From NCBI GenBank assembly GCA_012837385.1, contig DURH01000020.1, positions 233,140 through 297,139 of the forward strand: a stretch of 64,000 bases of DNA. Direction: 5' to 3'. The notes below the pieces were generated by a model. The model was not told the origin of the DNA, made no database searches, and was given only the letters and a program-made list of their open reading frames with translations. Positions 15,481 through 17,655 of this stretch are shown here, in pieces. The first letter of the stretch is position 1. Each line of letters begins with the position of its first letter. Source of the DNA: Bacillota bacterium. GTDB lineage: Bacteria; Bacillota; Limnochordia; Darwinibacteriales; Darwinibacteriaceae. Both the position numbers and the translations under genes were made by a program.

Positions 15481-16551
15481 ATGAAGAGAATTGTGTTAAC
15501 TGGGGGAGGCACGGCGGGGCATGTCACGCCGCACTTTGCCCTCGCTCCTTACCTTAAAGAAAAAGGCTGGGACATTTACTATATAGGCACCCACGAAGGA
15601 ATTGAGCGCCAGCTGGTGGGCGAACGGTTTCCGTATTACCCCATCAGTGCTGGAAAACTGCGGCGTTATTTCGACTTCAAGAATCTCAGCGATCCTTTCC
15701 GGGTCGTCAAAGGTGTAGTCGATGCCTACGGGCATCTGCGGCGCATTAAGCCTGCAGTGGTTTTTAGCAAAGGCGGGTTTGTGGCCGTGCCGGTGACAGT
15801 TGCGGCGTGGCTGCTGCGCATCCCTGTGATTCTCCATGAGTCTGATCTTACTCCCGGCCTGGCTAACAAACTCAGTCTGCCCTTTGCCCAAAAGCTCTGC
15901 GTTACCTTTCCCGAATCGGTCCACCATTTGAAAGGTCGGGCTGGTCAGAAGGTGGTGGTGACAGGAACGCCCATCCGTGCCGAGCTGTTCCAAGGGTCCC
16001 GTCAGAAGGGGCTTAAGATGTGTGGATTCAGCCCTGGGGTCCCTGTGCTTCTGGTGATGGGAGGCAGCCTTGGTTCGGCTGTTCTCAACAGAACCATCCG
16101 CGAGAACCTCCAAGAAATCACCGGGAACTATCAGATCATCCATCTCTGCGGCAGGGATAATCTCGATCCAAACGTGAGCCATCCACACTATTTCCAGTTG
16201 GAGTATGCCAACGAAGAACTGCCCCATCTCCTGGCGGCTGCAGACTTTGTGCTGTCTAGAGCAGGAGCCAACGCGATTTTCGAGCTGGCCGCGCTAGCTA
16301 AGCCCAATATCCTGGTGCCCCTTTCCAAGCAGGCCAGCCGCGGTGACCAAATCCTCAACGCCGCTTCCTTTGAGAAGCAGGGATTCAGCGTGGTTGTTCA
16401 GGAAGAAGAACTGACAGGGCGAGTTCTCCAGGAAAAGTTGGCGCTGCTGGCCCGGGAGAAGCAGAGATTTGTCGAAGCTATGGAGTCTTCTCCAATAAAG
16501 AATGGGACTGGGAGCATACTAAGGCTGATTGAGGAAGTGGCACGATATTAG
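15481..16551 (+). CDS. murG: UDP-GlcNAc:lipid I N-acetylglucosaminyltransferase MurG
   Basis: A 356-residue GT-B glycosyltransferase that adds GlcNAc to lipid I on the inner face of the membrane to form lipid II. The N-terminal loop LTGGGTAGHVTPHFALAPYL, the segment FSKGGFVAVP, GTPIR, MGGSLGSAVLN, and the UDP-binding RAGANAIFELAALAKPNILV are all seen. AGGAGGAATAGCG gives a clear ribosome site for ATG 15481. murG is normally inside the division/wall cluster after ftsW; here it stands alone, some 18 kb away from mraZ. The stop codon is inside the wrbA palindrome. Confidence 0.95.
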   Translation: MKRIVLTGGGTAGHVTPHFALAPYLKEKGWDIYYIGTHEGIERQLVGERFPYYPISAGKLRRYFDFKNLSDPFRVVKGVVDAYGHLRRIKPAVVFSKGGFVAVPVTVAAWLLRIPVILHESDLTPGLANKLSLPFAQKLCVTFPESVHHLKGRAGQKVVVTGTPIRAELFQGSRQKGLKMCGFSPGVPVLLVMGGSLGSAVLNRTIRENLQEITGNYQIIHLCGRDNLDPNVSHPHYFQLEYANEELPHLLAAADFVLSRAGANAIFELAALAKPNILVPLSKQASRGDQILNAASFEKQGFSVVVQEEELTGRVLQEKLALLAREKQRFVEAMESSPIKNGTGSILRLIEEVARY

Positions 16552-16580
16552 TTGCGATCGCAACTAATATATGGTAAAAT
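16545..16580 (+). promoter_or_regulatory. wrbA promoter with a perfect 26-bp palindromic operator
   Basis: Positions 16545-16570 are a perfect palindrome with half-site ATATTAGTTGCGA. It contains the likely -35 TTGCGA (16552-16557); after 17 nt follows the extended -10 TGGTAAAAT (TAAAAT at 16575-16580). A dimeric repressor bound there would block RNA polymerase. The TTGC/GCAA core is common in MarR-family operators, but the regulator is not encoded next door. There is no T-run, so a terminator for murG is less likely. Confidence 0.7.
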
Positions 16581-16612: not shown

Positions 16613-17221
16613 ATGTCAGTTAAACTTGCCGTGATTTACTACAGTTCCACGGGGACCAACTATCAACTAGCCCAGTGGGCGAAGGAAGGAGCCGAGGAAC
16701 TGGGCGCGGAAGTGAAAGTGCTCAAAGTTCCTGAACTGGCTCCACAGGCTGCGATTGATTCCAATCCTGCCTGGAAGGCTAATCATGAAGCGACGAAAGA
16801 CGTTCCCGAGGTCCAGCTGTCCGATTTAGAATGGGCTGATGCGTATATTTTCAGTGTACCAACCCGTTTTGGCAACATGGCCTCTCAGATGCGGCAGTTC
16901 CTGGATACAACTGGTGGGCTGTGGTTCCGCGGGAAGTTGGCCAACAAGGTCGTAAGCGCAATGACTTCCGCCCAGAACCCCCATGGGGGGCAAGAAGCCA
17001 CCCTGTTGTCGCTGTATACGAACATGTACCATTGGGGCGCGATTGTTGTGGCCCCAGGCTACACTGATCCGTCCATATTTGCTGCAGGGGGCAATCCATA
17101 TGGAACTAGTGTCTCAGTGGATCAAGAAGGAAAGATGGTAGAAGACGTGGAGGCTGCGGTGAAGTACCAAGCTAAGCGGACAGTAACCGTTGCCAAATGG
17201 CTTAAGCAGGGCAAAGAATAA
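16613..17221 (+). CDS. wrbA: NAD(P)H:quinone oxidoreductase, WrbA type
   Basis: A 202-residue flavodoxin-fold protein that reduces quinones by two electrons with FMN. The FMN phosphate loop [12 protein letters not shown] lies near the N-terminus; [22 protein letters not shown] and the [12 protein letters not shown] segment are hallmarks of WrbA. ATG 16613 is chosen because the upstream ATG at 16571 lies inside the promoter; AAGGATGGGAG provides the ribosome site. The gene stands alone between a palindromic operator and a terminator, and converges with a superoxide reductase gene, which suggests a role in redox or electrophile stress. Confidence 0.92.
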
Positions 17222-17240: not shown

Positions 17241-17267
17241 GGGCAGGATAACCTGCCCTTTTTTTTT
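17241..17267. terminator. Terminator between wrbA and superoxide reductase
   Basis: GGGCAGG (17241-17247), loop ATAA, CCTGCCC (17252-17258), nine T. It is strong for wrbA; on the minus strand the AA before the stem is too short for a good U-run. Confidence 0.85.
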
Positions 17268-17655
17268 AGTTGACTGTAATGGCTTTGGCGCTCTCCCAAA
17301 GACCGTGGATGTTGCAGTAGCTCAGGGCGATGAGGGTGCCGCTTTCTTTCAAACGGACCTTTACCTTGGCATAGGGTTCAGTGTAGCAAGGTCCTGCCTG
17401 TGCACCCTTGAGTCCTTCACCGTGTATTGTGAACTGGATATCCGCTAACTCGAACGTAAACCCTTCAGTGGGCTGGAACAACAGCTTAATCCAGCGGATA
17501 TGGTGCTCTGCTGTGTTGGGGTGGGGCACTTCCGCACCTACGCTCACAGTAATCTCAACGGCTTCGTCGGCCCCGACGTTTTCCGGGGCTTCAATCACGG
17601 GAACATGTTTCTCGTTCTTCCAATCTCCGCTGCGCAATACGTCACCGAGTTTCAT
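17266..17655 (-). CDS. Superoxide reductase (class II desulfoferrodoxin, neelaredoxin)
   Basis: A 129-residue superoxide reductase that reduces superoxide to hydrogen peroxide at a mononuclear non-haem iron centre, common in anaerobes. The ligands can be placed: E15-K16-H17 in EKHVPVIEAP, H45 in VPHPN, H51 in AEHHIRW, and C114 and H117 in SYCNIHGLW. The N-terminal desulforedoxin domain of class I enzymes is absent, hence class II. AAGGAGG precedes the ATG. A nearby rubredoxin donor is not encoded. The gene converges with wrbA and is divergent from the zinc-ribbon gene. Confidence 0.94.
   Translation of the reverse strand: MKLGDVLRSGDWKNEKHVPVIEAPENVGADEAVEITVSVGAEVPHPNTAEHHIRWIKLLFQPTEGFTFELADIQFTIHGEGLKGAQAGPCYTEPYAKVKVRLKESGTLIALSYCNIHGLWESAKAITVN

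Follow-up and report, generated by a model that had tools for sequence, protein, structure and literature searches.

The 26-bp perfect palindrome that lies across the −35 box of wrbA in the 64-kb window (the whole stretch of DNA analysed here) very probably serves, judging from sequence comparison, as the operator for one particular repressor of the MarR family, whose gene lies on the same contig at a distance of about 92 kb. An unlinked repressor of the MarR type is well supported by the shared site, by the co-occurrence of site and regulator, by their paired loss and by the ATAGTTGCATATGCAACTAT-type palindromes of the regulator's distant homologues. The region is organised as follows:

15481 to 16551, plus strand: murG, the upstream gene, outside the system (matches to TIGR01133 and PRK12446 above cut-off)
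16545 to 16570, no strand: 26-bp perfect palindrome (candidate operator) with arms of 13 + 13 nt
16549 to 16566, no strand: 18-bp core operator TAGTTGCGATCGCAACTA, common to the sufC and marR promoters of relatives
16549 to 16551, plus strand: stop codon TAG of murG, inside the left arm of the palindrome
16552 to 16557, plus strand: −35 box TTGCGA, within the operator
16572 to 16580, plus strand: extended −10 element (TG-G-TAAAAT), from the promoter scan
16613 to 17221, plus strand: wrbA, NAD(P)H:quinone oxidoreductase type IV (TIGR01755, 155.6 bits against a cut-off of 132.5)

The palindrome consists of ATATTAGTTGCGA followed directly by TCGCAACTAATAT, whereby the two 13-nt arms are 100% complementary and the loop is 0 nt, so that the perfect 26-bp inverted repeat of the original prediction was borne out. 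The same holds for the predicted promoter, since TTGCGA is separated by 17 nt from the −10 box TAAAAT (16575–16580), an extended −10 TGn is present and the promoter scan found no other promoter-like site in the region. The wrbA gene is genuine, as its TIGR01755 score exceeds the cut-off, and its start codon (ATG at 16613) agrees with that of relatives. Convergent to wrbA lies a gene for a superoxide reductase of the desulfoferrodoxin/neelaredoxin type (17266–17655, minus strand), which has no palindrome of its own and is also found beside wrbA in two genomes of the genus (G003 and G004). The site shows the features of a MarR-type operator, namely TTGC/GCAA half-sites, symmetry around a 4-nt centre, an overlapping promoter element and several target promoters. 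Its left arm is in part doubly constrained, as TAG is the stop codon of murG and TTGC belongs to the −35 box. Thus, the left-arm TAGTTGC is partly explained by these two elements, and it is the right half-site that carries the information. The centre of the palindrome, GCGATCGC (16554–16561), is identical to the cyanobacterial HIP1 octamer, which looks like a coincidence because the central bases differ in relatives.

By expectation, 64 kb would hold 0.001 and a whole genome 0.03 perfect zero-loop palindromes with arms of at least 13 nt. The longest arm obtained in 100 dinucleotide shuffles of the window was 11 nt, and no other perfect zero-loop palindrome in the 64-kb window has arms longer than 8 nt. 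It is present as a single copy in the 2.1-Mb genome, where other matches stay at chance level, and the operator pattern with up to one mismatch did not occur a second time anywhere in this genome. The search of the same genome for a regulon of the consensus likewise yielded one site only, with 76 weaker matches compared to 119 for the reversed control; the best of these weaker matches (C9:38061) seems to fall within a coding frame and was rejected. The original prediction had named a dispersed repeat as one outcome that would speak against it, and this was ruled out, as the genome holds no other copy.

Conservation at wrbA was compared among six genomes of the genus (G000–G005, with G000 being the window's genome). 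TTGCG-NN-CGCAA is kept in four of them (G000, G001, G002, and G005), and the operator is degraded or broken in G004 (TTGCAGGCGCAA) and G003 (TTGCCGGCGCGTTGCAA). Common to the genus members with the site are this core and its flanks, whereby the full 26-bp perfection is found in G000 only. This comparison of orthologous wrbA upstream regions had been proposed together with the prediction, and it revealed that each of the four regulator-bearing genus members preserves the core. TTGC and the 17-nt spacing are conserved at wrbA in genus g1 and in the neighbouring genus g9, where only TTGCCA (−35) and TATGGTTAAAT or close variants remain. Some g9 genomes carry a partly similar TTGCCAACGCAG at wrbA, which weakly hints at an older, decayed site. 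In several related genera (wrbA upstream regions L008, L014, L015, L018, L020, L021, and L027), the palindrome at wrbA is replaced by AAGTnAGTnAGT-type repeats, which sit near or downstream of the −10 box and suggest another regulator, perhaps of the HxlR type, in those genera.

Across the wrbA, sufC, and marR promoters the consensus of the 18-bp core is TAGTTGCGNNCGCAACTA. The family and class scan found sites of this type upstream of sufC-sufB in nine SUF-containing genomes, which belong to the same family (G006, G014, G007, G010, and G012), the same order (G024, G027, and G032), and the same class (G049). When up to one mismatch was allowed, TAGTTGCGNNCGCAACTA occurred in 11 of the 73 class genomes with one site each, two at wrbA and nine at sufC; the reversed control pattern matched three other genomes of the 73. 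Within the family, TTGCGNNCGCAANTANNNTRTGNTA was matched exactly at no genes other than wrbA (3) and sufC (5), always at the same distance from the −10 box; a pattern combining operator and promoter likewise had its only exact family matches at these two genes. All sites follow one geometry, in which the operator lies on the −35 box and is followed after about 17 nt by TATGnTAtnnT, a motif that is conserved at the wrbA, sufC, and marR sites. The SUFBD domain is present in all nine genomes with a sufC site; in the NCBIfam check, one sufC scored above the cut-off and the one sufB piece checked was truncated.

The candidate regulator in the window's genome is encoded at G000:C65:341407-341877 (protein MKRCPDEYLTRWFSIMHRL...RCADCSFSADCS), outside the window and about 92 kb from wrbA (C65:249752). 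It belongs to the MarR family according to PF01047, with 52.3 bits against a Pfam gathering score of 24.6 (59.3 bits for the protein of L201), and it is an orthologue of the sufC-linked MarR (64% identity, E 1.6e-62). The MarR gene adjoins sufC in G024, G027, G032, and G049, whereby its own promoter carries the operator in G032 and G024 only. Within the family of the window's genome, the search around the regulator gene yielded no site. Autoregulation was therefore rejected for this family, and the linkage of site and regulator in the window's genome rests on comparison. In the genus and in G010 marR is located directly 3' of a gene for a MATE-family efflux protein (L241:1490-3378 of G000:C65), and no operator was found upstream.

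A class-wide search of 73 genomes identified strong orthologues of the regulator in 12, all of which carry the operator at wrbA or sufC. The operator is absent from 60 of the 61 genomes without a strong orthologue. The exception is G014, a fragmented MAG of 91% completeness, in which the sufC operator is intact (C353:764) and the regulator was not found, probably due to incompleteness of the MAG or a recent loss. With shared ancestry ignored, the co-occurrence of site and regulator gives a Fisher value of 7e-13, or of 1.1e-9 if the same site criterion is used throughout, and among the 33 SUF-bearing genomes p = 6e-7, again ignoring shared ancestry. The genus itself shows the paired loss, as marR is missing from the slot MATE-marR-asnS in G003 and G004, where the operator is broken or degraded; for regulator versus intact operator this is four versus two genomes (Fisher 0.067, a small sample). 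Masked bases break up the orthologue of G002. The tree of the regulator agrees with vertical descent, although several of its forks have weak support. At 6 of 25 loci, compared to 0.08 expected, the gene of a distant homologue from other phylum members (33–48% identity) is preceded within 200 bp by a TTGC-N4-GCAA palindrome, e.g., ATAGTTGCATATGCAACTAT. In two distant genomes (L264 and L268), two TTGC-N4-GCAA palindromes spaced 31 bp apart precede the marR homologue at a distance of about 1.45 kb, which suggests a further target of this MarR clade.

In an unlikely alternative, a different protein (HxlR, TetR, or another MarR) uses the palindrome as its operator, and the link to the SUF-type MarR is coincidental. 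The window's genome may hold other MarR-like genes, as 12 candidates, one of them strong, were obtained at first look, and the AAGTnAGTnAGT motifs near the −10 box in other genera imply that wrbA can be under other regulators. However, site and MarR subfamily occur together in 12 genomes and both are missing from 60 of the 61 others, and it is this marR that adjoins sufC with the same site and whose homologues have the same half-site.

Less probable still, the palindrome would form an RNA hairpin (terminating murG or marking an mRNA 3' end) or would be a by-product that arose where the stop codon of murG is fused to the −35 box. CGCAA, the right half, is neither a stop codon nor a promoter element and tracks the presence of the regulator, and identical sites with identical promoter geometry stand before sufC and marR, where the upstream genes are unrelated, although the palindrome does overlap the murG stop codon and TAG plus TTGC, which the stop codon and the −35 box explain, persists in g9 without the right half. 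Moreover, the terminator scan of the region called no terminator around the palindrome and the U-run is absent, whereupon the terminator or hairpin reading was rejected. We give least credence to a chance palindrome or a remnant of a mobile element. The restriction of full perfection to G000 would fit such an origin, but the rarity calculated above, the core kept at orthologous promoters and the genome without another copy do not, and a core conserved throughout the genus speaks against recent insertion.

For the operator of the unlinked MarR protein, we propose that a MarR dimer would bind TAGTTGC-GATC-GCAACTA and cover the −35 box, so that RNA polymerase would be blocked at the wrbA promoter; repression is implied by the overlap of operator and −35 box. 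Arrival of a signal would release the repressor, and WrbA, a quinone-reducing flavoprotein, would be made. The suggestion that an unlinked MarR-type regulator represses wrbA has gained a matching marR and an operator at a fitting position, whereby repression itself is deduced from the sequence. In relatives, the orthologous MarR would control the sufCB operon via the same site at the same promoter position, and in two of them also its own gene. No SUFBD domain was detected in any of the six genus genomes searched, and SUF is present in all eight other regulator-bearing genomes. The genus appears, from this distribution, to have kept the regulator (in four of six genomes) after losing SUF, its original target, and wrbA is the one recognisable target of the regulator in the genus. 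Accordingly, wrbA was either already a further target while SUF was still present, or acquired its site afterwards.

With respect to the signal, C4, C146, and C149 are invariant in the 11 subfamily members compared, and 9 of the 11 have a further C-terminal cysteine; the distant homologues shown in the comparison are without this C4/C146xxC149 layout. Our first guess is oxidation of thiols or of an Fe-S cluster via C4, C146, C149, and often a fourth cysteine. Due to the conserved cysteines and the link to SUF, Fe-S or thiol-redox status is plausible as the signal, at least as much as the quinones or electrophiles of the original prediction. Quinone sensing by analogy to MhqR (PMC6798810) is likewise possible. 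More tentatively, and with rather low probability as a whole, the protein may be a repressor with a MarR fold whose sensing of Fe-S or thiol status relies on a metal or cluster site built from C4 together with the CxxC(x)nC of the C-terminus, that evolved for SUF control and that was kept after SUF loss by controlling WrbA through the same operator. If true, it would represent an Fe-S-type suf repressor on a MarR fold, with traceable shrinkage of a regulon and switching of its target.

Taken together, a lone palindrome has become a regulator-operator pair with a prediction backed by alignments. In uncultured Bacillota, the MarR subfamily would connect the assembly of Fe-S clusters with quinone or redox defence and would offer a compact natural case of a regulator that survived the loss of the operon it first controlled. 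Its conserved cysteines allow the idea of a MarR-fold Fe-S or redox sensor to be tested directly. No prior description of the site sequence, of a suf-regulating MarR or of a wrbA-MarR link was found in open-licence PMC papers, and the cysteine-bearing SUF/wrbA MarR subfamily appears to be undescribed in this literature, which was covered non-exhaustively.

Neither the operator nor the fold is unusual for a MarR regulator. E. coli MarR is a winged-helix dimer, which recognises palindromic TTGC...GCAA half-sites in marO that overlap the promoter. Both systems are alike in the winged-helix dimer, half-sites, distance from centre to half-site and promoter overlap; they differ in the core, which is TAGTTGC-N4-GCAACTA here, in the targets, which are wrbA and sufCB instead of an antibiotic-resistance operon, and in the conserved cysteines at both ends of our regulator. 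The best-scoring named family for the subfamily is BilQ (NCBIfam NF045593) and the best match among solved structures is the MarR-family protein of PDB 3s2w, whereby neighbours and targets differ in both cases. With about 64–80 bits (63.7 in the NF045593 test) against a cut-off of 125, the regulator is not a BilQ. SufR-type proteins are ArsR/DeoR-like and use cysteines as cluster ligands. SufR of Mycobacterium (Rv1460) is a repressor of the suf operon (PMC6034842), and with regard to suf repression, SufR including that of cyanobacteria is a functional analogue of the SUF-linked orthologues. In contrast to SufR, the protein described here scores as a MarR (a distinction drawn from the MarR score), has the cysteine layout C4 plus C146xxC149 and was retained after SUF loss. 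The model closest to the quinone idea is MhqR, which is reported to be a quinone-sensing MarR repressor of Staphylococcus that is tied to quinone resistance (PMC6798810, PMC12893000). In contrast to MhqR, the target here is wrbA, plus SUF in relatives, and the cysteine motif together with the SUF link suggests another signal.
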